Of a stretch of 64,000 nt of DNA, positions 26,708 through 55,850 are shown in pieces. The notes below the pieces were generated by a model. The model ran no database searches and had not been told where the DNA came from. It saw nothing but the letters and a program-made list of their open reading frames with translations. Each line of letters opens with the position of its first letter. The first letter of the stretch is position 1. The stretch comes from Gammaproteobacteria bacterium (lineage in GTDB: Bacteria > Pseudomonadota > Gammaproteobacteria > Ga0077536), in assembly GCA_021773835.1 (NCBI GenBank), contig JAJFJQ010000015.1, positions 62,001 through 126,000 on the forward strand, in the 5' to 3' direction. The translations under genes and the position numbers were made by a program.

Positions 26708-27841
26708 CTAAAGTTGGTAAACCTCAGCGACACTATCGCCAAGTAAGTTGTTACGCGCGGCTTCCGATAAAGGTGCGACGAGTTCCTCTAACTCTTCCAT
26801 ATAATTGCCGGGATGATCGAAATGTGGGTAGTCGGTCGCCCAGAAAAAGCGATCGTTGCCAACGTAGTCAATAATATGCGCGAGCGCACGCTCGTCGGGA
26901 TCACCCGAAATCCAACATTGGCGTTTGAAATATGTGCTCGGTTTTTCTTTAAGCGGAACCTCGGCCCCTAGGGAGGTTGCGTAGGTTGTGTCCATTCGAT
27001 CGAGGGCGGCGCCAATCCAACCAGCACCAGACTCCAGTACAACGATTTTAATCCGCGGGAAACGGTCGAATAATCCCCACTGAAATAAACCATAGAATGC
27101 CTGCTGCGGCCCTTGCATGCCCAGTGCGTTTTGCATCCAACCCGCCTTACCCATCCCACTAAAGCGTTGGTAGGTTCGGATCTTTGGGTGCTCGGCCATC
27201 GGATGAATCGCAACCGGTACTTGCATCTCCTCGGCCTTGGCCCAAAAAGCATCGTGATCAGGGTGGGCATGTGGGATCCGCGTCAGCGTATAGGGCGCGA
27301 GAAACGCTCCTTTTGCACCCGCCCGCACCGCGCGTTCTAGTTCCGTTGCCGCTGCATCCGGATCCGCCAGCGAAATATGTGCTGCCGCGATCAATCGACC
27401 GTCGGAGTCCGAGCAGAAGTCACAAATCCAACGGTTGTAGGCACGTGCGTAGGCGAGCGACAGTTGCGGATCGTCGAGTTCACATTCCCAGGTTAATCCG
27501 AGGCTCGGATATAAGATCGCTTTGGCAATGCCTCCTTGATCTAGCAGAGAGACGCGCTCTTTTGGTTCCATAGACCCGAATGGCGCGTAGCCGGGATACG
27601 GTCGATCGCTCATCTCGGCCAACTCCTCGGCGCTTTTACCCATTGCACCCAAGCGCGTGAGGATCGCTACGTCGAAAAATTGAGACCGCTTGCCGCCTAG
27701 TTCTAGATATTCTTTACCGTCGTGCACGCGCAGGCGTAGAGCACGATCGCGATAGGCGGGATCGATGTAACGTTCCCAAGTGTCTGCTGGTTCGAGAATA
27801 TGCCCATCCGCATCGACAATGTTGGTGTGATGTAACGTCAT
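26708..27841 (-). CDS. Amidohydrolase-2 family protein (decarboxylase-like)
   Basis: A metal-dependent TIM-barrel protein of 377 residues in the amidohydrolase-2 family, which contains non-oxidative decarboxylases (resorcylate, carboxyvanillate, ACMSD) and ring hydrolases. Visible are the N-terminal metal-site strand DADGHILEP, IHPMAEH in the middle, and WATDYPHFDHP with the late Asp. It is the last of four leftward genes after an alcohol dehydrogenase and a ring-hydroxylating dioxygenase alpha/beta pair. It may therefore decarboxylate or hydrolyse a product of the dioxygenase. The reaction is inferred from family and context. Confidence 0.82.
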   Translation of the reverse strand: MTLHHTNIVDADGHILEPADTWERYIDPAYRDRALRLRVHDGKEYLELGGKRSQFFDVAILTRLGAMGKSAEELAEMSDRPYPGYAPFGSMEPKERVSLLDQGGIAKAILYPSLGLTWECELDDPQLSLAYARAYNRWICDFCSDSDGRLIAAAHISLADPDAAATELERAVRAGAKGAFLAPYTLTRIPHAHPDHDAFWAKAEEMQVPVAIHPMAEHPKIRTYQRFSGMGKAGWMQNALGMQGPQQAFYGLFQWGLFDRFPRIKIVVLESGAGWIGAALDRMDTTYATSLGAEVPLKEKPSTYFKRQCWISGDPDERALAHIIDYVGNDRFFWATDYPHFDHPGNYMEELEELVAPLSEAARNNLLGDSVAEVYQL

Positions 27842-27858
27842 TTAATTATGGGAGATCA

Positions 27859-28401
27859 CTAAAGAAATATACCGAGGCTCTGCACGGGCAACGTTGCATG
27901 TGACAAAATCACCTCGCGCCGTCGTAAGCGCAACCCGCCGCTTGAGCGGCGCAGGATATCATGTCGTTCTGCAGCGAGTATCGTATGCTCGCTCACATCA
28001 CCACGTCCGTAATATACAAGTATGTTTGATGTCGCATTGATCGTAGTGCTGTCGGGGGCTGTCGTGCGCAGATTACCGATTAGACGCCGCGTGCGAGTAG
28101 GCGGATCTTCGCCCCAAGCGCTCTTTGTCGCGAGGCGCGAAATCCGCATTTTCATCGACGCAATGTCCTCTTTCATATGCCAGGCGTCCGGCTGCAGAGG
28201 GTCTTCCGTGCGATGCCGCGTTTGCCGGATCGGCACCTCATAACTGATGTCTTCGCTCAGTAAGCCGAGCCAATCCTCCATGCGATTGTCGTCGAGCAAG
28301 GCTGCCTCATGCACGAGAAATTGATAACACTCGAACCACAAGGCCATCGCCGCGCCGTCGTTCACAGCCGACCCCGCTCCACCACCGGGTGCTTCGCTCA
28401 T
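27859..28401 (-). CDS. Aromatic-ring-hydroxylating dioxygenase, beta (small) subunit
   Basis: A 180-residue SnoaL/NTF2-like structural subunit of a Rieske dioxygenase. The FECYQFLVHEAALLDD segment and the YEVPIRQTR strand are typical, as is a C-terminal RREVILSHA strand. It carries no metal ligands. Its ATG overlaps the stop of the alpha subunit gene by one base (TGATG), so the two are translationally coupled and expected in an alpha3beta3 complex. The N-terminal Gly/Ala-rich stretch is probably disordered. Confidence 0.88.
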   Translation of the reverse strand: MSEAPGGGAGSAVNDGAAMALWFECYQFLVHEAALLDDNRMEDWLGLLSEDISYEVPIRQTRHRTEDPLQPDAWHMKEDIASMKMRISRLATKSAWGEDPPTRTRRLIGNLRTTAPDSTTINATSNILVYYGRGDVSEHTILAAERHDILRRSSGGLRLRRREVILSHATLPVQSLGIFL

Positions 28402-29780
28402 CAGGCCAACTTCCGCGGCGCCGGAATCAACTCCGGGTAGGCATCATCGCGCAGGAAGCGCACCCATTGTCGAAACGTGTAACGATAGGCGTTCTCCTCG
28501 TAGCGATGCGAGGTCGCCGCTCCCGGACCCGGCCAATCTTCGATTTGCTCCGCCGTGCCAATCGCAAATCCGGATTGGTAATTTAACTTCATCGAGCGTC
28601 CAATGACGCTACTACTCGTACGGTTGATGCCGTGTCCAGCCAATCCGTCATCCTGATCGAACACACCACCACTACCGAAGGTCCGAATTGCAATGAGGTG
28701 CGATTTCTCGCGGAACTCCGCCGACGCACTGGCCGGTATGAGGTTCCAAACCCACGCCTCCATGCGGCCATCGCCGCGTGGCAACCACATTCGGATCTGC
28801 GCTAAGGGCACCGCCGGGATCTTCGGATCAACGGTGATTGGGAACACGAGATAAGAGAAATTCGGAAACAGCGTACCAACTAGCACGCGGCTACGCTTCA
28901 TGAGGTCAATTTGGAAGTCATCGAGATGCTTTGTACTGTAGCGCGCGATCATTTCTGCCGGATATCCCCAATAGGCGATCTCATCAGACGGGGCGATGGA
29001 AATCGTGATGTTGTGCCCATGTCCAGTGATGATGTGATGGCCGAGGATGTTCGCCGCCGGCGGTACTGCCAACGCACCGATCTCAAATAACGATCGGTGT
29101 AGGGTGATGAGGTGGTAGTCGTCGCCAAAACCGTCGAAGCCGGCCTTCCAAGTCGTTGGCCAAGTCGCTCGTTGCGGCGGTCCTAAAACTTCTAAGTCAT
29201 CGAATAAACCGAAAAAAATATCGAGATAATATGCGGCATCGCCCATGTACTCTGCCAATGATGGTGCATCGGGATCAAGACAAGCGAAGTACAAACCACG
29301 ATATTGCTCTAACCGCGTAACCGCTAACAGCCCCCATTCCCCTCGATCGATCCCGCCAAGTACGTCGTCGATCGCAGGTGCCGTGGTCAACTCCCCGGTA
29401 TTCGCGTAGGTCCATCCATGATAGGGGCATTGAAATGCCTTGCTGTTACCACGCTCGACGGTGCAGATTTGATTGCCGCGATGCCGACAAGCGTTGAACA
29501 AAAGTCGGATCTCGCCGTCACTACTGCGGATAAATATAAACGAATCCTCGCCGATGTAGCGGATAACGTGGTCACCGGGTTCCGGGATCTCCGACACGTG
29601 TCCAATAAAACTCCAAACTCGCGGGAACAAACGTTCGCGTTCTAAAGCGTAGAGTTCCGGGTCATTACCAAACACCCAGGCTGGCACGAGGCCGTCGTTT
29701 AGGTCGGTTTCGACACCTGATAGTCGCTGCTCGAGTTCCGCGGACACGGACCGTGTACGTAGGATATTGAGTTCTGCCAT
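28401..29780 (-). CDS. Aromatic-ring-hydroxylating dioxygenase, alpha (large) subunit
   Basis: Catalytic subunit of a Rieske non-heme iron oxygenase, which adds O2 to an aromatic or related ring. From the ATG at 29780 it has 459 residues. The Rieske cluster ligands are Cys98/His100 and Cys118/His121 (CRHRG and CPYHGW). The mononuclear iron site is DDYHLITLH with His223 and His228, and a late Asp lies in DQDDG. The ATG at 29780 begins the conserved N-terminus; 43 upstream codons would overlap the alcohol dehydrogenase end and are ignored. No reductase or ferredoxin is in the operon. Confidence 0.92.
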   Translation of the reverse strand: MAELNILRTRSVSAELEQRLSGVETDLNDGLVPAWVFGNDPELYALERERLFPRVWSFIGHVSEIPEPGDHVIRYIGEDSFIFIRSSDGEIRLLFNACRHRGNQICTVERGNSKAFQCPYHGWTYANTGELTTAPAIDDVLGGIDRGEWGLLAVTRLEQYRGLYFACLDPDAPSLAEYMGDAAYYLDIFFGLFDDLEVLGPPQRATWPTTWKAGFDGFGDDYHLITLHRSLFEIGALAVPPAANILGHHIITGHGHNITISIAPSDEIAYWGYPAEMIARYSTKHLDDFQIDLMKRSRVLVGTLFPNFSYLVFPITVDPKIPAVPLAQIRMWLPRGDGRMEAWVWNLIPASASAEFREKSHLIAIRTFGSGGVFDQDDGLAGHGINRTSSSVIGRSMKLNYQSGFAIGTAEQIEDWPGPGAATSHRYEENAYRYTFRQWVRFLRDDAYPELIPAPRKLA

Positions 29781-29802
29781 GGTCGACCTCGCCAAATAGC
29801 CT

Positions 29803-30903
29803 TTAGTCTTCGAATAGGATCGCAGCGCGCGTATATTGATGCGTTTCGAGATCCGAGAACGCTTGGTTGATACCCTCGAGCGGATAGAAACGATCCGTAA
29901 TACGGTCAAACGGTAATTCGTTCATCATCATCAGGTCAACGAAGCGCGGTATGTCGCGGCGCGGCACAATCGAGCCGCCGTTGGTTCCAGTGATTATTTT
30001 CTCGTTGATCAACCCACGAAGCGGCACACTGTACTCGATATCACCACGCATGATACCGATGGCGCAGACCGTGCCACCGTTGCGGGTAGCAGCAATGCCG
30101 GTCTCCATTGTCGATGGCGCACCGACCGCATCGTAGAAGAAATCAACCCCAGCGCCGCTAGGGCTTAAGCGAATGATGTCTTCAACAACATCAGGTCCGG
30201 CGACGATCACATCGGTAGCGGCGCCTAAGCTAAGCGCGGTGTCTAATTTTGAGGGGACGTTATCGATTGCTATCACCCGCTTCGCGCGTAGGGCACGCGC
30301 GCCAAGCATCGTCGCAATACCAACACCGCCAGCACCCAGTACCGCAACGACTGCGCCCGGCTCGACCGGCGCTCGAATCATCGAAGCACCGAGGCCTGTT
30401 GAGATACCGCAGGCCAGGCCTGCGATCTTTTCCAATTCGACATCACGCCGAACTTTGATCGCACCAGCGGCTGGTACAACCGCATATTCGGCGAACGACG
30501 ATTGGCAGAAAAAACTGTTGATGCGCTGCCCATCGCGTTCTAGGCGAGGCGTTCCGTCCGGCATCACGCCGGAGAAGGCGACCTCGAACCATCGATCGCA
30601 CACCGACAACGCGCCGCGATCGCATTGGGGACAAGCGTTGCATGGCATGACAATGGAACATACAACCGGATCACCCACGGAGAATGCCGTAACGCCCGGC
30701 CCTACTTTGTCGACATAACCGCAGCCTTCATGACCAAGCACGACGGGCTTTGGTACGTCGAAATTTCCCCGCATCACAGACAGATCGGTGTGGCAGATCC
30801 CAGCCGCGACGATGCGCACTCGCAATTCGTGGGAACCAGGCTCCGGCATATCGATTTCTTGGATCTCAAGGCTGTCGATCGCCGTGCAGACTGCCGCCTT
30901 CAT
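29803..30903 (-). CDS. Zinc-dependent medium-chain alcohol dehydrogenase
   Basis: NAD(P)-linked oxidation of an alcohol, perhaps a benzyl-type alcohol or diol from the dioxygenase. The 366 residues show catalytic-zinc motifs GICHTD and GHEGCG, the four-Cys structural zinc loop CNACPQCDRGALSVC, and the cofactor loop VLGAGGVGIAT followed by DNVPSK, the Asp suggesting NAD preference. It is the first gene of the leftward operon adh-dioxygenase alpha-beta-amidohydrolase (23 bp to the alpha gene). A 174-bp divergent promoter region separates it from the FAD monooxygenase gene. Confidence 0.92.
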   Translation of the reverse strand: MKAAVCTAIDSLEIQEIDMPEPGSHELRVRIVAAGICHTDLSVMRGNFDVPKPVVLGHEGCGYVDKVGPGVTAFSVGDPVVCSIVMPCNACPQCDRGALSVCDRWFEVAFSGVMPDGTPRLERDGQRINSFFCQSSFAEYAVVPAAGAIKVRRDVELEKIAGLACGISTGLGASMIRAPVEPGAVVAVLGAGGVGIATMLGARALRAKRVIAIDNVPSKLDTALSLGAATDVIVAGPDVVEDIIRLSPSGAGVDFFYDAVGAPSTMETGIAATRNGGTVCAIGIMRGDIEYSVPLRGLINEKIITGTNGGSIVPRRDIPRFVDLMMMNELPFDRITDRFYPLEGINQAFSDLETHQYTRAAILFED

Positions 30904-31077
30904 CCGATGCCCTCGCCCCGTAACGCTGTTCGCTTTGTCACCATTATGCCGCCAGTTTGCTTGTGTGCATACGTAGAACTAGTATGCCTAAACACAGCGA
31001 CGAAGAAGCGTATGGAATGAACAATGATTGCGCTGCAACAACGCGATGACCAGGGATAAACAGCGACGCTCCAAGCA

Positions 31078-32232
31078 ATGAACCCTGATGCTCGGATCGC
31101 AATTATCGGCGCGGGCCTCGGCGGCTTAGTTGCCGGTGCACTACTCCAGCAGCGCGGTTACCGCGTCCGAATATTCGAGCAGGCCCCCGAGTTTGCCCGC
31201 CTCGGTGCCGGTATCAACCTCAGTCCAAATGTAATGAAAGTGCTCGGCGAGATCGGTGTCTCGGATCGCCTGTTAGACATTGGGATCCGACCTCGCTCCT
31301 GGGTCAGTCGTGACTTAACGACCGGTGAGATCTTATTTGACTATCGAATGCGTGATGTCGTTGAGACAAAATTCGGCGCACCCTATATCACCATTCACCG
31401 CGGCGACTTTCATGCCGTGCTAACTGAAGCGGTCGCTCCTGGAACAATTGAATTCGGCAAGCGTTTGCGCGGCTTTGAACAGCAAGCCGGCAACGTGCGC
31501 CTCGATTTCGACGGCCACCCGAGTGTGGATGTTGACTTCGTGATCGGCGCCGACGGCATTAATTCTATGGTGCGCGAAACCCTGCTCGGTCCGGAATTAC
31601 CAATCTACACAGGCTATGTTGCACATCGTTCAATCTTTCCCATGAGTCGCCTCGACGGTATGGAGGTCGACGACTTTTGTAAATGGTGGTCGGACGATGC
31701 GCACGGCGACCGTCATATCGTCGTCTATTTACTGGACAAAGCCGCTGAAGAGATCTACTTCGTCACCGGGGTACCGCAAGCGGATTGGGATCACGGCTTG
31801 TCATTCGTTGATACCGATATGGAGGAATTTCGCGGACACTTTGCTGGATTTCACGAAAACGTGATCCGCCTCGTCGAAGCGTGTCCAACTGCCACAACGT
31901 GGCCGATTTTCGAACGCGAACCGCTCACGCTGTGGAGTCGCGGCCAAGTCGTGTTACTTGGCGACGCTTGCCATCCGATGAAACCCCATATGGCACAAGG
32001 CGCTGCCATCGCGATCGAAGACGCGGCGATCCTTGTGCGCTGTCTGGAACATTGTGGCGACGCTCTGGGCGCCGCGTTGACACTTTATGAAAACAGTCGC
32101 AAAGCGCGCGCCTCACATGTCCAAAAACATTCCCATGCAAATAAATGGTTGCGTGCACCAATGGACCCGAGTTGGGTATTTGGTTATGACGCGCTAACCC
32201 AAGAACTCGGCGTTCCGGCGGGAACGCCGTAA
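31078..32232 (+). CDS. FAD-dependent aromatic monooxygenase (salicylate hydroxylase-like)
   Basis: A class A flavoprotein hydroxylase of 384 residues. It has the dinucleotide-binding motif GAGLGGLVAG at the N-terminus with Glu in FEQ, the DG motif GADGINSMVR, and the GD motif LLGDACHPMKPHMAQG. It probably hydroxylates, and possibly decarboxylates, a phenolic acid using NAD(P)H. It heads a rightward pair with the molybdenum hydroxylase large subunit (65 bp gap) and is divergent from the dioxygenase operon, which suggests one catabolic unit. Confidence 0.9.
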   Translation: MNPDARIAIIGAGLGGLVAGALLQQRGYRVRIFEQAPEFARLGAGINLSPNVMKVLGEIGVSDRLLDIGIRPRSWVSRDLTTGEILFDYRMRDVVETKFGAPYITIHRGDFHAVLTEAVAPGTIEFGKRLRGFEQQAGNVRLDFDGHPSVDVDFVIGADGINSMVRETLLGPELPIYTGYVAHRSIFPMSRLDGMEVDDFCKWWSDDAHGDRHIVVYLLDKAAEEIYFVTGVPQADWDHGLSFVDTDMEEFRGHFAGFHENVIRLVEACPTATTWPIFEREPLTLWSRGQVVLLGDACHPMKPHMAQGAAIAIEDAAILVRCLEHCGDALGAALTLYENSRKARASHVQKHSHANKWLRAPMDPSWVFGYDALTQELGVPAGTP

Positions 32233-32297
32233 CGAGCCCAAACGTCGGGACGCGCGCTAGTACGCGAAAAATAGTCCGAATAAATAGAGATAACGAC

Positions 32298-34661
32298 ATG
32301 TCCAAATCCGACGTCGCAGAAATTACCCCCAAGGTCATCGGTCAATCGATCCTGCGCAAGGAAGACGCAAGCTTACTTGCGGGGCGCGGAGAATACGTTG
32401 CCGACATCATTTTGCCTGGCATGTTGCACGCGGCCTTTGTGCGCTCGCCATTTGCCCACGCAAAAATCACGAACATTGATTTGAGCGCCGCCAGCGCAGT
32501 TCCAGGGGTCGAACTCGTGTGGAGCGGCAGCGACGTTAAACCGCTTTGCGAGGGACTGTTGGGAACGCTAGAACTCGACAATTTCACCTCAACCTTGCAG
32601 CCATTGATTGCGGACGCTGAGGTCCGCTTCGTCGGGGAAATCGTGGCTGTGGTGGTCGCGAGCAGTCGTCGCCTGGCTGAAGATGCGGCCGGAGTCGTCG
32701 ACGTCGACTACGAAGAGCTGCCAATCGTTGCCAACATTGACGAGGCGCGCAAGGCCGAAAACCTCGCAAATGATCAAGTACCGGGTAACATTATTCACGC
32801 CGCCACACGCGTCGGTGATGACCTCGCCGATGCACTCGCCAGCGCAGCAGTCGTAGAGCACGGTAAATTTTATAATAACCGGATCAGTGCAGCACCGATG
32901 GAGACGCGTGGCTGCGTTGCGCGGCACGAGTGGACTAGCGGTCTGTTAACGTTTTGGTCGTCGACACAAATGCCTGGGCTGTTTCGTACACTCATCGCGA
33001 CGACCTTGCAGATCCTTGAACAGACAATCGAGATCCGCAATCCGCAAGTCGGCGGTGGATTTGGTCAGAAGGCGCATTTATTTCCGGAAGAATTGATCGT
33101 TTGTCTCTTATCTCGTGATATGGCGAGACCGGTTTCATGGATTGAGGATCGGCAGGAACATCTCCTCGCCGCGACCCATGCTAAAGACCAAGTCAACGAC
33201 ATGACCATGGCCTTCGACCGCGACGGCCGTATATTAGCGATTCAGAATCGATCGACGACCGATAGCGGCGCCTACAATAATTTGCCGTGGAGCGCGGCAA
33301 TTGAGTCGACCGTGGGCACCGCAAGTATTACCGGCGCTTATAAGATCCCACTCGCACACGCCGAATGCGCTGAAGTTGCCACCAATAAATGTCCCATCGG
33401 GGCCTACCGCGGCGTTGGTTGGACGGCCGGACAGACGGCTCGGGAAACACTATTGGATCGCGCAGCGCGCAAACTCGATCTGTCGCCGTTTGAAATCCGC
33501 CGGCGTAACGTCATCGGCGAAGCGGATTTCCCGTATACAAATGCGACAAAATTAATGGTCCGCGAAGGTACCTTTTTCGAAACCGTGAACGTGCTTGAAC
33601 GGATGGTGGATTACAATGCATTTCGTGAACGTCAAAAGGCGTCCCGCGCCGACGGTAAGTACCTCGGTCTCGGTGTCAGCGTATTTAATGAACTGTCCGG
33701 GATCGGCACACGGGCCTTGCATTACATCGACCTGCCGACCGCAACACATGACACCACGACAGTTCGGATCGACCCGACCGGTACGGTGACGGTCACGACC
33801 TCGCTAACCTCCCAAGGTCAAGGACACGCGACGACCTTCGCGCAGGTGGCAGCCGATGCGTTTGGCATCTCGATCGACAAAGTCGTGGTCCGCGCAGACA
33901 GTACGGCAAATGCCTGGGGTATGGGGGCTTGGGCCAGCCGCGCTGCGGTTATTGGCGCAGGTTCTATTGGCCGCGCCGCGGACGTCGTGCGAGCCAAGAT
34001 CAAACAGGTAGCCGGTCATATGCTCGAAGTCTCACCCGAAGACATCGTGCTTGAAAACGATCAAGTTCATGTTGCCGGCGTCCCAAGCAAGAGTATGTCT
34101 TTCGCCGATGTCGCCGGTGCGATCTATTTCGCGGAATCCGCTCACCCGCCAAACTTTGATCCCACATTGGAAGCGACAGCAGCATTTGATCCAGCGGAGA
34201 TCGTTTTAGCCAACGGCGGCCACGCAGCGATCGTAGAGGTCGATATCGAAACCGGGATCGTGCGCGTTGAAAAGGTATTCGCGGTTGAAGATTGTGGGCA
34301 AATGATCAACCCAATGATCGTCGAAGGTCAGATCCGAGGAGGCGTTGGCCAAGCGATCGGTTCGTGCTTGCTGGAAGAGATCGTCCATGACGAGCGCGCG
34401 CAGATCGTCAGCACTACCTATATGGATTACCTATTATCGACTTCGATGGATGTTCCGGATATCGAGATCGAGCATCTAATGACCCCTTCCAACTTGGTAC
34501 CCGGCGGAATCAAAGGCATGGGAGAGTCGGCGATGATTTCCGCGCCCGCTGCAGTCGTCGGCGCAGTCAATGATGCACTGGCCTGCCTCGATGTATCCAT
34601 CGAACGCTTTCCGATCTCGCCACAACGAGTGTTCGCTGCACTTGCCGCCCGTAGGGCTTGA
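32298..34661 (+). CDS. Molybdenum hydroxylase large subunit (xanthine dehydrogenase / CoxL family)
   Basis: Molybdopterin-cytosine-dinucleotide-binding catalytic subunit, 787 residues, which hydroxylates an aldehyde or N-heterocycle with water. Seen are the N-terminal hammerhead domain (about 12-125), VGGGFGQK for cofactor binding, the GAYRGVG loop in place of the CO-dehydrogenase AYRCSF loop, and the C-terminal active-site Glu in KGMGESA. CO dehydrogenase activity is therefore unlikely. The FAD (CoxM) and 2Fe-2S (CoxS) subunits are absent nearby. It follows the FAD monooxygenase and is convergent with a methyltransferase gene. Confidence 0.9.
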   Translation: MSKSDVAEITPKVIGQSILRKEDASLLAGRGEYVADIILPGMLHAAFVRSPFAHAKITNIDLSAASAVPGVELVWSGSDVKPLCEGLLGTLELDNFTSTLQPLIADAEVRFVGEIVAVVVASSRRLAEDAAGVVDVDYEELPIVANIDEARKAENLANDQVPGNIIHAATRVGDDLADALASAAVVEHGKFYNNRISAAPMETRGCVARHEWTSGLLTFWSSTQMPGLFRTLIATTLQILEQTIEIRNPQVGGGFGQKAHLFPEELIVCLLSRDMARPVSWIEDRQEHLLAATHAKDQVNDMTMAFDRDGRILAIQNRSTTDSGAYNNLPWSAAIESTVGTASITGAYKIPLAHAECAEVATNKCPIGAYRGVGWTAGQTARETLLDRAARKLDLSPFEIRRRNVIGEADFPYTNATKLMVREGTFFETVNVLERMVDYNAFRERQKASRADGKYLGLGVSVFNELSGIGTRALHYIDLPTATHDTTTVRIDPTGTVTVTTSLTSQGQGHATTFAQVAADAFGISIDKVVVRADSTANAWGMGAWASRAAVIGAGSIGRAADVVRAKIKQVAGHMLEVSPEDIVLENDQVHVAGVPSKSMSFADVAGAIYFAESAHPPNFDPTLEATAAFDPAEIVLANGGHAAIVEVDIETGIVRVEKVFAVEDCGQMINPMIVEGQIRGGVGQAIGSCLLEEIVHDERAQIVSTTYMDYLLSTSMDVPDIEIEHLMTPSNLVPGGIKGMGESAMISAPAAVVGAVNDALACLDVSIERFPISPQRVFAALAARRA

Positions 34662-34714
34662 TTTTTTAGTCCACACTGCAAAGACCACACCCACCTTACA
34701 CACTGCGGCAAAGG

Positions 34715-35470
34715 TCAAGCGAGTCGCCCGAAGCGCAAAGCCAAATCCCAGCTCAAGCTCCGTCGCGAAGTCGCCTCGCCCCATAACGGGACGACGCGCG
34801 CAGCCAATAACGCCACGGGATCGGCACCGCGCGCTTCCTTGTAGCGCTGCACTGCAGACCAAGAGCCTATGTAGCCGAGTATCCCCGCGAGATCCCAATT
34901 CACTTTAATGGCAAACGCCGGCGTATCGAGGTCGATGAATGGAAACGGGATCGATCGATATTGATCGTCTACCCAACGACGCTCATTTGGCCAGTACGGT
35001 CCGACTACATCGGCGTAAAACCAACGTATTGCAGCGTCGATGTCGGGGCCAAGTTGGGGCGACACCGACAAAAAGCTATAGGTCCAGGCGGCGATGTGCC
35101 CAGTCGGCTTCAGCACTCGTCGCACCTCGGCATAGAAAGGCTCAAAGTCGAACCAGTGCAGAGCCTGTCCGATCGTGACGAGGTCAACCGTATGATCCGC
35201 GAGTGGCATTGCTTCAGCCACGGCTTGCACATATTGCACTGAAGTATCACGCGGTGCATTTCCAAGCTGAGCACCGCTTTGATCCGACGCCACGACGGTA
35301 CCCGCGTGACGCCGCAGCGCCTCCGCCGCTTGACCGCTACCGGTTGCGCAATCCCAAATGGTCGCGTCATTTGGCAGCGTCGTGGTCAAGAAGTCATATA
35401 AGTGATCGGGATACTCAGGTCGGTACTGTTTGTAGGATTTCGACTGGGTCGAAAAATAATCCTTTCGCAT
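34715..35470 (-). CDS. Class I SAM-dependent methyltransferase
   Basis: A 251-residue methyltransferase of the methyltransf_11 type. The N-terminal YFSTQSKSYKQYRPEYP is characteristic of a broad family of unknown substrate. Motif I is WDCATGSGQAAE with the acidic DQSGAQL after it. IGQALHWFDFEPFYAE is a further hallmark. It lies 62 bp downstream of the molybdopterin oxidoreductase on the same strand. It may be co-transcribed with it. Confidence 0.85.
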   Translation of the reverse strand: MRKDYFSTQSKSYKQYRPEYPDHLYDFLTTTLPNDATIWDCATGSGQAAEALRRHAGTVVASDQSGAQLGNAPRDTSVQYVQAVAEAMPLADHTVDLVTIGQALHWFDFEPFYAEVRRVLKPTGHIAAWTYSFLSVSPQLGPDIDAAIRWFYADVVGPYWPNERRWVDDQYRSIPFPFIDLDTPAFAIKVNWDLAGILGYIGSWSAVQRYKEARGADPVALLAARVVPLWGEATSRRSLSWDLALRFGRLA

Positions 35471-35532
35471 ACGAAAATATAATGACGTCGATCGAAAGCA
35501 GCGCTGCTGGCCGATTCAACTCGCTTCGCGAT

Positions 35533-37923
35533 CTATTCTTGTAGCAACGCGATCTGGCACAAGTACGACCGGTGCGGTACGCAGCCACCAACGGGATCGT
35601 AATCGGCGTTCCCAATCATTCGGTTAAGGTTTGCGCCGCTTTCGTTTTCGGCGTCGTAGCCTGGCAGCGACAACGGGTCGCAAGCTTGCCACCAGCCAAC
35701 TGTCGCGCGCACAACCCGAGGATCAATAGATTTTGAATAGCGGGCGCGCATGCGCGTGCCGCCATGTGGGGTCGTGAGCACGACCCAATCACCATCCCCG
35801 ATCCCCCGACTCGCCGCGGTATCCGGGTGAACATCGATCCGGGGCTCACGTTCATGGCGGCGCAATTTCGCGACATGACGATATTGACTATGGATGTAAT
35901 GCGGCGATTTTGTATCGGTCAATACCAACGGGAAATCCTGTGCGAGATCGGGCCGTGAGATCGGGCCAACCGCCGGTTCGACGTACTCGGGTAGGGGTGC
36001 ATAGCCGTGGGCGAGAAACGTCTCGGAGTACAATTCGACGCGACGACTTGGGGTTGCGAAACCTGGCGCCGTCCCGTTAGTAGCATCCGCATATTTCTTG
36101 TAACGCGTCTGTGCGGGCACTTCGATACCGCGCGGCGCGTTCCGCAGATCGTCAAGATCGAGACCACTTGGCTCAAGTATCGCGCGGTACCCGCCATCCA
36201 TCTCACCACCCCAAAAGTTTTCAGCGAGATCAAGTCGTTTAGCCAATTCGAAGGCTATCCACGCATCTGATCTCGATTCGCCCAAGGACTCGATGACCTG
36301 TGGCTTCATTTGCACATAGTTCGACGCTGCCTGGTCGACCATAAAATCTGTCCGCAAACCTTCGCGTTCCCACGGTGTATTTACCGGTAGAAAAATATCG
36401 GCATGAGTCGCGGTTGGGGTCATGAAGAGATCTGCGTGCACCATGAACTCAAGCGCATCTAGAGCTCGCGCGCCTCGCTCGCCGTCCGCGTGTGACACTA
36501 AAATATTCATACCGAAGCTTACGAATGCATCAACCCCATAGGGATTGCGATCCAGTACAGCCTTATACAGCGCATCGGAAGTGATCCAACCAAAAATTGA
36601 TTCAGGACCGAGTGTGCGCTCCTCACGGCCTAGCGACTTGTCGAGCATCCCGTCCGGCATGAGTTCACCGCCGAAAATCGGTGCAGCCGGTACGCGCTCG
36701 AATAAGACGTTGCCGCCCGGCGCATCAAAACAGCCGGTGAGCGCGTATAAACACGCGATCGCGCGGTTGGTTTGGGTGGTGTTGGAATGCATCTCGAGCC
36801 CAGCCCAGGCGTAGCATGAAACCGCCTTACTCGAACCGATCAGGCGCGCCGTTGCACGTATTTGATCGGCTGACACCCACGTTATTTCCGCCGCATGTTC
36901 GGGTGAGTACTCGTTACACAGATCACGGTAGCGTTCGAATGCCGGTCGACAGGTCTGCAGGCCATTCACCGTCTCAACATCGCGTGCACCGACGAGAGAA
37001 GCCACCGAAATCGACTCGGTATAACGCCCCGCTTGCGTATCGTAGTGCGCTAATCGCCCTCGGTGCTCATCCCAAGCAACGCGAAGACTGTGATCACCAC
37101 CGGGCTCTAAGTCCGCACCAGTTAGAAATTGCCCATTATCGTCGCGCACGAGAAACGCGCCATTGGTCCACTCGCGAACAAAATCCGTGTCGAAAAGACC
37201 TTCCTCGATCATCACTCCTGCGATCGAAAGCGCGAGCGCACCGTCGGTCCCCGGCCGAATTTGTAACCACTCATCGGCCTTGGCAGCGGCGCCGACCCGA
37301 ACCGGATCCATCACGATTAGCTTCGCACCACGCTTTTTTGCGTCGGCCACGCGCGTGCCGAACGCGAGCCAAGTCGTGCCGGGATTATTACCCCACAGGA
37401 TCACGCAGTCGCTATTAGCGACATCACTCATTGGTAGGGGTACACCGAAGGTGTGCGGATACACAAAATCTTTCGCGAATGCGCAAAGTTCGATCGATGC
37501 AACGGCATTCGGCGTACCGAAAGCTTGGCGCAAGCGTTCTACAAATGGATAGCCATCCTGCATCGCGGTGCCGGCGCTGGTCGTGATACTAAAGGCAATC
37601 GATTCCGGTCCCGATTTCGCCTGAATGCGCTTTAGCGCCGCCGCGGTGGTATCCAGCGCCTCATCCCAGCTTATCCGTACCCAGCCCGGATCCGGATCCC
37701 CTTTTGGCCGTGTTCGTTTCATTGGGTGCAGCACCCGCGCGTCGCTATAGACGTACGCCGGTGCAGCCTGACCCTTTCCACACAGCGTATTACCGGTTGG
37801 GTGTTCTCGATCGGGCTCCACGGCGACCAGTCGCCCGTCTTCAACGACCGAGATACAGCCGCAGCTCGACCAGCACAGCGCACAGTATCCGGGGATGCGT
37901 TGTTGTTTGAGATTGGCGGCCAT
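35533..37923 (-). CDS. Molybdopterin-dependent oxidoreductase (formate dehydrogenase/DMSO reductase superfamily)
   Basis: A 796-residue catalytic subunit. The N-terminal [4Fe-4S] motif is Cys14-x2-Cys17-x3-Cys21-x26-Cys48. Residues to about 590 bind the bis-MGD cofactor, and the C-terminal molydop-binding domain (about 665-790) has LVLTDTKSPHY and RHVAKLRR. No twin-arginine signal is present, so it is cytoplasmic, unlike many respiratory members. The residue replacing Cys/Sec is not obvious in SYAWAGLEM. The substrate is unknown. It is divergent from the second GlxA regulator, which may control it. Confidence 0.88.
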   Translation of the reverse strand: MAANLKQQRIPGYCALCWSSCGCISVVEDGRLVAVEPDREHPTGNTLCGKGQAAPAYVYSDARVLHPMKRTRPKGDPDPGWVRISWDEALDTTAAALKRIQAKSGPESIAFSITTSAGTAMQDGYPFVERLRQAFGTPNAVASIELCAFAKDFVYPHTFGVPLPMSDVANSDCVILWGNNPGTTWLAFGTRVADAKKRGAKLIVMDPVRVGAAAKADEWLQIRPGTDGALALSIAGVMIEEGLFDTDFVREWTNGAFLVRDDNGQFLTGADLEPGGDHSLRVAWDEHRGRLAHYDTQAGRYTESISVASLVGARDVETVNGLQTCRPAFERYRDLCNEYSPEHAAEITWVSADQIRATARLIGSSKAVSCYAWAGLEMHSNTTQTNRAIACLYALTGCFDAPGGNVLFERVPAAPIFGGELMPDGMLDKSLGREERTLGPESIFGWITSDALYKAVLDRNPYGVDAFVSFGMNILVSHADGERGARALDALEFMVHADLFMTPTATHADIFLPVNTPWEREGLRTDFMVDQAASNYVQMKPQVIESLGESRSDAWIAFELAKRLDLAENFWGGEMDGGYRAILEPSGLDLDDLRNAPRGIEVPAQTRYKKYADATNGTAPGFATPSRRVELYSETFLAHGYAPLPEYVEPAVGPISRPDLAQDFPLVLTDTKSPHYIHSQYRHVAKLRRHEREPRIDVHPDTAASRGIGDGDWVVLTTPHGGTRMRARYSKSIDPRVVRATVGWWQACDPLSLPGYDAENESGANLNRMIGNADYDPVGGCVPHRSYLCQIALLQE

Positions 37924-52239: not shown

Positions 52240-53280
52240 GTGTACGAAGCATTTTATAATCTCGACGCCAAAGCTTTTAGCTTACTTCCCAACCCCGCGT
52301 TCCTCTTTATGAGTCAGCAGCACGCACACGTGATGTCGACCCTTGAATATGCGATAAACAATGATGCAGCGCTATCGGTGGTAACGGGCGACGTCGGTGC
52401 CGGAAAAACCACCGCCATCCGCCAGCTGCTGATCCAGCTTGACCAGACCGTAACTGTTGGCCTGATCTCCAACACTCACCGCGAATTCGGTAGTCTCATG
52501 CAATCGGTTGCGTTGGCCTTTGGAATACATTTCAAAGGCAAAGAGAAGGTCGAGCTTTATCAAGATTTCACCGATTTTCTCGTTAACGAGTATGCCGCAG
52601 GGCGGCGCACCTTATTGATCTTGGACGAAGCACAAAACCTCGATGCTCAAACGCTCGAAGAGGTTCGGTTGCTCACCAATATCAACGCGGATGACCACAC
52701 CTTGCTGCAATTGCTGCTCGTTGGGCAATCTGAATTACGGGACTTACTCAGACGCCACGAACTACGCCAACTGACACAACGAATCAACGTAATGGCGATG
52801 CTCGGGCCGCTGGACGAGAGAGAAACAATAAATTACATCCGGCATCGTCTTACCCGCGCTGGCGGTGACGCAAAGCTGTTTCATAAAAATGCACTGCGGC
52901 TGATTTACTGGAACAGCCGCGGGATTCCACGCGTGATAAATTTGTTGTGCGAACTTGCACTGGACTACGGGTTTAGCCGCGGCAAAAGAAAAATTCACGC
53001 ACAAATCATCGCCGATATTGTGCATGATCGAGCGGAATCTGGTGTCTTCGGCGAAGTGGTTTACGATTTAGAGACCTTGGGGGCAACCGATAAGGCGAAT
53101 GCACTCGAGGCCGCCGCGCGTAAAAAGTTAAAAGCGCTAAAATCGCGAGCCGATTCCAAATCGTCGTCAGATGTAGTGTCACCGGAAATTCGACGGGTCG
53201 GAAAAAAAGTAACTGACCTACCCGTAGACCAGTCGGATGTGACGGAAATCTCCGTAAGGCAATTAAGCTCGATAGCGTAA
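52240..53280 (+). CDS. ExeA/GspA-like AAA ATPase
   Basis: A 346-residue P-loop ATPase. It has Walker A GDVGAGKTT (residues 50-58), Walker B LLILDEAQ (about 125-132), and a GIPRVINLLCELAL sensor-2 region. The N-terminal FYNLDAKAFSLLPNPAFLF is the signature of ExeA/MshM-type proteins linked to type II secretion, MSHA pili or exopolysaccharide export. It lacks a membrane helix and the peptidoglycan-binding domain of ExeA. No partner secretion genes are adjacent, so its system is elsewhere. The start is a GTG. The Lys-rich tail (about 290-346) is probably disordered. Confidence 0.85.
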   Translation: MYEAFYNLDAKAFSLLPNPAFLFMSQQHAHVMSTLEYAINNDAALSVVTGDVGAGKTTAIRQLLIQLDQTVTVGLISNTHREFGSLMQSVALAFGIHFKGKEKVELYQDFTDFLVNEYAAGRRTLLILDEAQNLDAQTLEEVRLLTNINADDHTLLQLLLVGQSELRDLLRRHELRQLTQRINVMAMLGPLDERETINYIRHRLTRAGGDAKLFHKNALRLIYWNSRGIPRVINLLCELALDYGFSRGKRKIHAQIIADIVHDRAESGVFGEVVYDLETLGATDKANALEAAARKKLKALKSRADSKSSSDVVSPEIRRVGKKVTDLPVDQSDVTEISVRQLSSIA

Positions 53281-53424: not shown

Positions 53425-53742
53425 GTGGCCAGTACTCAATTAGTTCCCGTTGGTGAGTTATCGAAAGGCGAAATCCGAAAGGTCGAGATTGATGGGCGTC
53501 ACCTCTTATTAGTCAACGGAGAAAAAGGCCCCGCGCTAATCGATCGTGTGTGCCCTCATTTAGGAGGCGACCTCGCCAAGGGCAAGGTTGTTGCGCATCG
53601 AATACGTTGTTCTACCCACAGCTATGTATTTGACCTCAAAACGGGTAGTTGCCCCCTCGCGGAACGTGAAGGGTTCGAGCCGCTGGCAGTTTACGAGTTG
53701 CACGAAAGTGAAGGATATCTTTGCGTTGAATTAGCGGATTAG
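53425..53742 (+). CDS. Rieske [2Fe-2S] ferredoxin
   Basis: A 105-residue soluble Rieske protein. Cluster ligands are Cys43-x-His45 (RVCPHLGG) and Cys62-x2-His65 (RCSTHSY). No signal peptide is present, so it is cytoplasmic. It may pass electrons to a ring-hydroxylating oxygenase. The dioxygenases in the window (28401-29780 and 61122-62345) lack a ferredoxin partner, so it could serve either; the FAD/cytochrome b5 protein just downstream is another candidate partner. The start is a GTG with a GGAGG site. Confidence 0.88.
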   Translation: MASTQLVPVGELSKGEIRKVEIDGRHLLLVNGEKGPALIDRVCPHLGGDLAKGKVVAHRIRCSTHSYVFDLKTGSCPLAEREGFEPLAVYELHESEGYLCVELAD

Positions 53743-53941
53743 CAATCACATAGCGACGACACCACTTTTGGATCGCGCCGTATGTTGCGATCCTTCTGCC
53801 GGCCTTTGACCAAGTTGACCATCCCCGTCGAGACCACACCGGAGTCACCTGCGGCCTACCATCGGGCATCACGGTCGAGAGGCGTACAAAGGATTTTTTC
53901 TCGAACAGATCTCGAGAATTCTCGGGGACACCAGCTACCAT
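53739..53941 (-). pseudogene. PPOX-class (pyridoxamine-phosphate-oxidase-like) oxidoreductase pseudogene
   Basis: The reading starts MVAGVPENSRDLFEKKS and continues RLSTVMPDGRPQVTPVW, the classic start of a PPOX-class F420/FMN oxidoreductase. After Trp at about 53835 the frame is lost. The continuation is in another frame, as VNLVKGRQKDRNIRRDP, which in intact homologues follows about nine residues later. So there is a small deletion with frameshift, and the frame then stops at 53739, missing the C-terminal half. The end overlaps the stop of the convergent Rieske gene. The intact ancestor had about 130-140 residues. Confidence 0.75.
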
Positions 53942-54086
53942 GGGATGTTCTCCTCGTTGATGAAGGATATAACGATAGATCCAAAAGCAAAGATGATTGG
54001 ATTTTGAAGCCGACCTGTGGGCAATAGTTGGGTGATAAAGAAGACTCCTTGACCGGTTCAAAAGTCCTTGCCGTCGTTGAATCTGG

Positions 54087-54111
54087 ATGATACCGTACGG
54101 TACGGTATCAT
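54087..54111. promoter_or_regulatory. Perfect 25-nt palindrome, TetR operator candidate
   Basis: ATGATACCGTAC-G-GTACGGTATCAT is a perfect inverted repeat with 12-bp arms, 69 bp before the FAD/cytochrome b5 gene. TetR-family repressors bind palindromes of this size, and a tetR gene is the next gene in the operon (55864). It overlaps the region where the operon promoter is expected. The regulator assignment is inferred. Confidence 0.65.
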
Positions 54112-54179
54112 TATATTTCAAACTCTAATGTGGGTCGTCCTCGACGCCGGCGGCCCGATCAGGTCGGGAGGTAGTCGTT

Positions 54180-55850
54180 ATGCATGCAATTATCGTCGGA
54201 GCCGGAATGGGGGGACTATTCGCCGCATTAGCACTTCGGGAATCAGGTGAATTCGAGTCCATCGATGTCTATGAACAAACCCGAGAGCCAAGTACAGCCG
54301 GCGCCGGCTTGAATATCCCACCCAACGCGGCACGCTTGTGCCACTGGTTGGGTGTCGATCTCGACGGCGGCGATCCAAAAGGTGCACACGGTGCAGTCGA
54401 TGGAGGCCGTGCAGCCATTCTCGAGAGCACTCGCGGGATCATGGCCGACGGAACGGTGTCGGTAAAACCGATTGACCACAACACCGTTATTGGCGACGGC
54501 GCGGGATTTCATCATATGCATCGTCTTGATTTGTTGATGTGCCTGTATAAGAGAGCTTTCGAGTTCGCCCCGGAAACGGGGGCCACCTGCCCGATAAAAA
54601 TCCATATGGGTAAACGCTTAAAGGCACTACAGCAGGACGCGTCTTCTGCCACGGCGACATTTGAAGATGGCACCCAAGCAAGCGGCGAGCTGGTCGTCGG
54701 TGCCGACGGCATCAATTCAAAAACGCTACGGCTATTGTGGCCTGAGGCGCCACCCAGGCGCTGGACGGAGGTCACGTGCTATCGCGGTTTGATCCCGCGT
54801 GAGACCGTCCGAGGGCTAATGAAGGCTGACGGTAGTCCTATGGATAACAATCCGATCGATTCCTTCAGTATGGACGCCCGCAAAACGCTGAAAGGGTACG
54901 TGATCACCTACTGGGTACGCGGAGGCGAACTGCTAAACGTGTGGATGGCGTACTACGAGCCGAATTCCGCAGAATTCGAAACGGACGAAGGCGACTGGTT
55001 TCCCGCCGACCGGCAGGAAATGTACAAAAACATGTCGAACGCTTTTGCTGGCGACAGCAGGAAAGACGACATCCTTGCGTTGGCTAGTGCGGTGGAGGAC
55101 CCAACGAAGTGGGGACTCTATGATTTCGATGCCTTTGAATATTGGCAAGACGGTCGAATTTGCCTACTTGGCGATGCCGCTCATTCCATGTTGCCGACGT
55201 TTGGACAGGGCGCTGCGCAAGCGATGGAGGACGGAGCGGCGCTATACAGTTGTTTTAAGCTGCATGGGAAAGACGTGTATAGCGCACTGTTACATTACGA
55301 AAGGGTTCGACATTATCGCGCCACGCGCTTTCAATTTGCGTCAAAGTTTCTTTTTAAGCATCTCGAGCCCGAGGATACGCCGCAACGGCGGCAAATCTTG
55401 AAGGCGTTAAACGAACGGGACTACCCTGTTTTTGACCACGAACAACGTGCCGGCGACGATGATTCCTGGATTTACGCCTTTGATGCTCGCGAGATAGGGG
55501 ACAAGCTGCCGTTGAAAAAACTGGGGCCGTGGGATTTTCGCTCGCGCTCAGCGGCTATGGAGGCCCGGCGCGAGGTGATGGGAAATCTTTGGACACCTAA
55601 GACATCGTTAAATGGCGATCGCAAGGTCACGCGGGCCGAAGTCGCGGAGCACAACACGTTCGATGATTGTTGGGTGATCATTCGGGATAAGGTTTACGAT
55701 ATCAGCGAATGGAAAGACCACCACCCTGGCGGACCGTTTGTCGCGAGAATGCATGCCGGCAAAGATGCGACAGGCGAGTTTGGCGACTACCACAGCAAAA
55801 TGGCAGAACGCCACATGACTCACTTCTGCGTCGGCGAAGTAGTCGATTGA
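54180..55850 (+). CDS. FAD-dependent monooxygenase fused to a C-terminal cytochrome b5 domain
   Basis: A 556-residue fusion. Residues about 1-400 are a class A flavoprotein monooxygenase: the nucleotide motif GAGMGGLFAA, the DG motif VGADGINSK, and the GD motif LLGDAAHSMLPTFGQG. Residues about 478-556 are a cytochrome b5-like heme domain starting VTRAEVAEHNTFDDCWV, with axial His515 in the HPGG motif and His538 in DYHS, 23 residues apart as expected. Such a heme domain joined to a flavin hydroxylase suggests internal or external electron transfer beyond NAD(P)H. It is followed by its TetR regulator (13 bp gap). Confidence 0.9.
   Translation: MHAIIVGAGMGGLFAALALRESGEFESIDVYEQTREPSTAGAGLNIPPNAARLCHWLGVDLDGGDPKGAHGAVDGGRAAILESTRGIMADGTVSVKPIDHNTVIGDGAGFHHMHRLDLLMCLYKRAFEFAPETGATCPIKIHMGKRLKALQQDASSATATFEDGTQASGELVVGADGINSKTLRLLWPEAPPRRWTEVTCYRGLIPRETVRGLMKADGSPMDNNPIDSFSMDARKTLKGYVITYWVRGGELLNVWMAYYEPNSAEFETDEGDWFPADRQEMYKNMSNAFAGDSRKDDILALASAVEDPTKWGLYDFDAFEYWQDGRICLLGDAAHSMLPTFGQGAAQAMEDGAALYSCFKLHGKDVYSALLHYERVRHYRATRFQFASKFLFKHLEPEDTPQRRQILKALNERDYPVFDHEQRAGDDDSWIYAFDAREIGDKLPLKKLGPWDFRSRSAAMEARREVMGNLWTPKTSLNGDRKVTRAEVAEHNTFDDCWVIIRDKVYDISEWKDHHPGGPFVARMHAGKDATGEFGDYHSKMAERHMTHFCVGEVVD

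Follow-up and report, generated by a model that had tools for sequence, protein, structure and literature searches.

OnpA is ortho-nitrophenol 2-monooxygenase (EC 1.14.13.31). It is reportedly encoded in the ortho-nitrophenol cluster of strain NyZ215, where it acts on ortho-nitrophenol and is said to yield o-benzoquinone and nitrite, being active as a single protein. OnpB of the same strain is said to resemble vanillate demethylase reductases, and OnpC is reportedly a catechol 1,2-dioxygenase. The paper on the ortho-nitrophenol cluster of Alcaligenes sp. NyZ215 dates from 2007 (J Bacteriol 189:6587, as it appears in the reference list of PMC5604080). PMC13386531, citing J Bacteriol 2012 194:1342, describes OnpA as a bacterial monooxygenase of 558 aa to which a cytochrome b5 is fused, and its activity is reported to need the b5 domain. 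The hydroxylase-b5 architecture is therefore not new. In a literature search, no published explanation was found for what the heme does in monooxygenases of the OnpA type, and queries on the combination of hydroxylase and b5 domain returned little directly.

Each half of this architecture has other relatives. The phenol-acid hydroxylases of class A, 8gsm, 5eow (6-hydroxynicotinate 3-monooxygenase) and 6bz5/5evy (salicylate hydroxylase), belong to the same flavin family, carry the same motifs and are the best PDB matches of the protein described below, but they lack a b5 domain and their similarity to it is far lower. Flavocytochrome b2 (1fcb), fatty acid hydroxylase (4zr0) and sulfite oxidase (1mj4) share a homologous b5 domain with the same bis-histidine ligands, joined to catalytic domains unrelated to the flavin part considered here.

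The DNA analysed, hereafter the window, is a stretch of 64,000 nucleotides from a gammaproteobacterial genome. It carries a gene of the OnpA type with the following parts.

54180..55850, + strand: OnpA-type flavin monooxygenase-cytochrome b5 fusion gene, 556 aa, single ORF
54180..55379, + strand: class A flavin monooxygenase part, residues 1-400 (Pfam FAD_binding_3, invariant motifs, PDB relatives 8gsm, 8r2t, 5eow)
55203..55220, + strand: GQGAAQ motif, residues 342-347, presumed close to the flavin, as in other class A enzymes
55380..55619, + strand: linker, residues 401-480 (invariant G449, P450, W451, W471, P473)
55629..55841, + strand: cytochrome b5 domain, residues 484-554 (Pfam Cyt-b5, PDB b5 alignments, invariant histidines)
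55722-55724 and 55791-55793, + strand: predicted axial heme ligands His515 and His538 (alignment to b5 structures)

The gene begins with ATG, closely preceded by the Shine-Dalgarno-like gggaggt, and runs for 556 codons. An internal stop or frameshift, which the first-pass annotation had named as grounds for giving up the fusion, is absent from this frame. Pfam profiles matched the protein at 1.7e-17 (FAD_binding_3) and 2.2e-4 (NAD_binding_8). The three signatures of class A flavoprotein monooxygenases, GxGxxG, DG and GD, lie within one FAD_binding_3 chain: GAGMGG at residues 7-12 (54198-54215), ADG at residues 175-177 (DG at 54705-54710) and GD at residues 331-332 (55170-55175). In a 24-sequence alignment G7, G9, G11, G12, D176, G177, G331 and D332 were invariant. 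The top PDB relatives of the flavin part were the class A hydroxylases 8gsm, 8r2t and 5eow, together with salicylate hydroxylases.

The C-terminal domain was matched by the Cyt-b5 profile (E 4e-24) over profile positions 1-73 of 74. It aligned nearly end to end with solved b5 structures, best with 4b8n (E 2.1e-15), and matched yeast cytochrome b2 at E about 1e-14 to 1e-13. In the alignments to solved structures, H515, the first residue of HPGG (515-518), and H538 coincide with the heme ligands of b5. Both histidines occur in all 28 full-length family sequences, and H515, P516, G517, G518 and H538 were invariant in the 24-sequence alignment. The coordinates and content given in the first-pass annotation, a class A FAD hydroxylase followed by a full b5 domain with His515 and His538, were thus borne out by Pfam, motifs and alignments. 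From the invariant ligands, the window protein is predicted to bind a b-type heme. Modelling with AlphaFold2 from 24 family sequences gave a mean pLDDT of 59, too poor for flavin-heme geometry or a fold search.

It could be argued that the b5 domain is decaying or is carried along passively, and pieces of such genes do decay, as two remnants that retain the C-terminal part alone (L041 and L068, see below) indicate. The domain is, however, conserved about as well as the flavin domain and better than the linker, which is the least conserved part despite its invariant residues; both heme ligands are invariant, and the b5 requirement of OnpA given in PMC13386531 points the same way. A passive b5 domain is therefore highly improbable.

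When about 85,000 species genomes were scanned, 27 loci emerged, the majority encoding a full-length fused relative. In all, 27 further distinct full-length fused sequences, 61-82% identical to the window protein, kept the fusion and both histidines. Their hosts are Gammaproteobacteria, Alphaproteobacteria (Bradyrhizobium, Ruegeria, Rhodospirillaceae), Streptomyces and Acidimicrobiia; an 84% identical fragment of the gene was seen in a Candidatus Binatia genome (locus L023). The occurrence of this fusion in unrelated genomes excludes chance and sequencing error, and the 27 other full-length sequences rule out a sequencing artefact. The combination had been called uncommon, and the samples agree: a further full-length fused copy was found in none of 369 sampled genomes of the class, in 1 of 398 sampled genomes of the phylum and in 7 of 146 Bradyrhizobium genomes. 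The fused gene is rare and scattered in these samples.

The nearest bacterial relatives that lack b5 are about 35-41% identical. In a tree built from the flavin part only, a branch with 100/100 support separated all fused proteins from the rest. They form a single clade, for which one fusion event suffices; repeated independent fusions are unsupported. An origin from phage or plasmid was also rejected, as just one homologue lies on a plasmid and none on a phage. Separately, stretches of linker plus b5, 66-70% identical, were observed at L041 1153-1665 (genome G011) and L068 4918-5256 (G913) and are probably decayed gene copies. One of the 27 further sequences is a paralogue in the genome of the window itself, 76% identical, on contig C55. 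Around it (L036 5931-17603, L037 7613-9223), a reading by eye gave three more MhpA-like flavin hydroxylases, luciferase-like and fumarylacetoacetate-hydrolase-like proteins and an amidase.

Two members lie in catechol-pathway clusters. Pseudomonas fluorescens C2 (locus L005) encodes a 558-aa fused protein that is 73% identical over its full length, b5 domain included. Its gene is followed by one for a 320-aa OnpB-type reductase of the ferredoxin-NAD(P)H kind and by one for a LysR protein, and a catechol 1,2-dioxygenase scoring above the curated cut-off lies about 6 kb upstream. This protein, in the same clade as the window protein, served as a proxy for OnpA of NyZ215. The second member, 67% identical, is on a plasmid of Streptomyces sp. 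NBC_01340 (locus L067), among a muconate/chloromuconate cycloisomerase, an intradiol dioxygenase and a dienelactone-hydrolase-like gene; 3-oxoacid CoA-transferase subunits and a thiolase (beta-ketoadipate enzymes) are in the same cluster, and an OnpB-like reductase lies about 2.7 kb from the fused gene. Genes of the iron-alcohol-dehydrogenase type in this cluster are read as maleylacetate reductases. The region L067 7216-24245 appears to be a complete modified ortho-cleavage cluster around the OnpA homologue; the plasmid table lists no genes there.

Surroundings of the fused gene vary at nearly every locus. No gene besides the fusion recurs across the family loci, and a family-wide conserved operon was rejected. 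Glutathione-transferase genes were noted within a few kilobases in the window, at L001 and at L023. A Rieske protein gene (53425) lies 440 bases upstream of the fusion gene. The first-pass annotation had proposed this protein as a possible reductant, and the corresponding explanation is that the b5 domain takes electrons from it, which would give the flavin a different electron source. A 70% identical homologue does lie 4.4 kb from the fused gene of one close relative (G009, locus L001). The other genomes with fused genes that were tested have no close homologue, and a general partner role is for this reason unsupported. A seemingly decayed reverse-strand remnant also separates the Rieske and fusion genes, and the reported activity of OnpA as a single protein speaks against such a donor. 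Electron supply by the Rieske protein is thus given very little credence.

The remnant, a reverse-strand ORF at 53636-54121, matches PNPOx_N weakly and looks like what is left of a pyridoxamine-phosphate-oxidase-like gene. Further upstream, 52240-53280 encodes an XrtA/PEP-CTERM-type ATPase (TIGR03015, 278.8 bits, under the 324.5 cut-off), with no other exosortase genes recognised nearby. A catabolic region at 26708-37923 contains the alpha and beta subunits of a ring-hydroxylating dioxygenase and another class A hydroxylase, similar to the 3-hydroxybenzoate 6- and 6-hydroxynicotinate hydroxylases; molybdenum-hydroxylase-like genes were read there by eye.

Two features flank the fusion gene and are candidates for its regulation.

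54086..54112, no strand assigned: operator-like palindrome GATGATACCGTACGGTACGGTATCATT, 27 bp, 68-94 bases 5' of the start codon
55864..56469, + strand: TetR-family regulator, 201 aa (Pfam TetR_N, TetR_C_7)

With up to 2 mismatches allowed, the palindrome core has a single occurrence in the 6.1 Mb genome, against 0.00 expected from shuffles. The TetR gene starts 13 bases past the stop codon of the monooxygenase and is likely to be in the same operon. The fragment in the Binatia genome is preceded, in the same place, by a near-identical palindrome (around L023 7898-7922). There, monooxygenase codons 1-197 run straight into the final 32 codons of the same TetR, with 84% identity on both sides. 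This is most simply explained by a unit of palindrome, monooxygenase and TetR that both genomes once had in common, with an internal deletion at L023 that arose either in the organism or during assembly. A close homologue of the TetR of the window was found in none of the other carriers tested. The palindrome and the TetR gene, echoed at the Binatia locus, suggest a TetR-controlled operon. The closest solved TetR structure is NalC (3.7e-21), a regulator responding to chlorinated phenols; this likeness offers only a hint of a phenolic inducer.

We consider it quite probable that the window enzyme is an OnpA-family, NAD(P)H-dependent class A flavin monooxygenase with its own b-type heme in the C-terminal b5 domain. 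The observed basis is the presence of both domains, the conserved heme ligands, the single clade, the homology to an enzyme of a catechol cluster, the palindrome and the TetR gene; heme binding, reaction type, heme role and regulation are what we infer for the window protein. NAD(P)H would reduce the FAD, and reaction with O2 would give the C4a-hydroperoxide. A phenolic substrate, probably ortho-substituted, would be hydroxylated at the substituted carbon, in the manner of OnpA on ortho-nitrophenol. The bis-histidine heme of b5 would sit adjacent to the flavin domain and be needed for activity, its role being either structural or to relay single electrons between the flavin and either quinone or a reductase. 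The downstream TetR would probably repress from the upstream palindrome until a phenolic compound releases it.

The OnpA-family architecture is evident: like OnpA of NyZ215, the window protein combines a flavin monooxygenase and a C-terminal b5 in one chain of about 556-558 aa. Two marks of an onpABC cluster, a linked or genomic OnpB-type reductase and a linked catechol 1,2-dioxygenase, are both missing. A search of the genome at E 1e-8 gave no OnpB-type reductase (the positive-control genome gave E 1.4e-220), and no catechol-pathway genes adjoin the fusion gene. Two intradiol dioxygenases are encoded on other contigs, far under the catechol 1,2-dioxygenase cut-off. The TetR neighbour and the GQGAAQ motif are further differences from OnpA. 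At residues 342-347, both members from catechol-pathway clusters have GQGVNQ, and VN at 345-346 was seen in none of the other 26; 24-25 of the 28 carry GQGAAQ, counting those with a single change elsewhere than at 345-346, and one carries GQGCAQ. The two VN members formed a clade of their own in 25% of bootstrap trees.

The substrate of the window enzyme may therefore not be nitrophenol. An isofunctional ortho-nitrophenol 2-monooxygenase, in an organism degrading ortho-nitrophenol via catechol, would fit the 73% identity to a protein of the onp-like cluster of P. fluorescens C2 and the match over the whole length with its b5 domain. It is at odds with the missing reductase, the lack of a linked catechol 1,2-dioxygenase, the difference at 345-346 and the position of the window protein outside the group of the P. 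fluorescens protein in the tree, and this assignment is doubtful. A finer version of the preferred reading retains the same enzyme design with another substrate, another phenol or a heteroaromatic phenol, in catabolism or detoxification. GQGAAQ and GQGCAQ resemble the QGAA and QGAC in phenol-acid hydroxylases that decarboxylate their substrate, 8gsm and 5eow among them; the gene is solitary or in varied surroundings, has its own candidate TetR switch and occurs widely but in a scattered manner. The absence of a substrate clue from a conserved neighbourhood and the high overall identity to the catechol-pathway members temper this version, towards which we lean slightly.

A bolder extension, which we regard as rather improbable, concerns the GQGAAQ type that makes up most of the family. 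The substrate of such enzymes would be a natural phenol distinct from nitrophenol, and they would have no partner quinone reductase; the b5 heme would reduce the quinone product, the enzyme being hydroxylase and quinone reductase at once under a phenol-sensing TetR switch.

The kind of enzyme is already known, and the candidate regulation unit and the motif split are modest additions. The split near the flavin tracks whether a catechol pathway and an OnpB-type reductase are present, a correlation of two cases for the VN motif. With 28 full-length sequences, the motif split and a candidate operator-regulator pair, tests of the substrate and of the role of the heme become easy to design.
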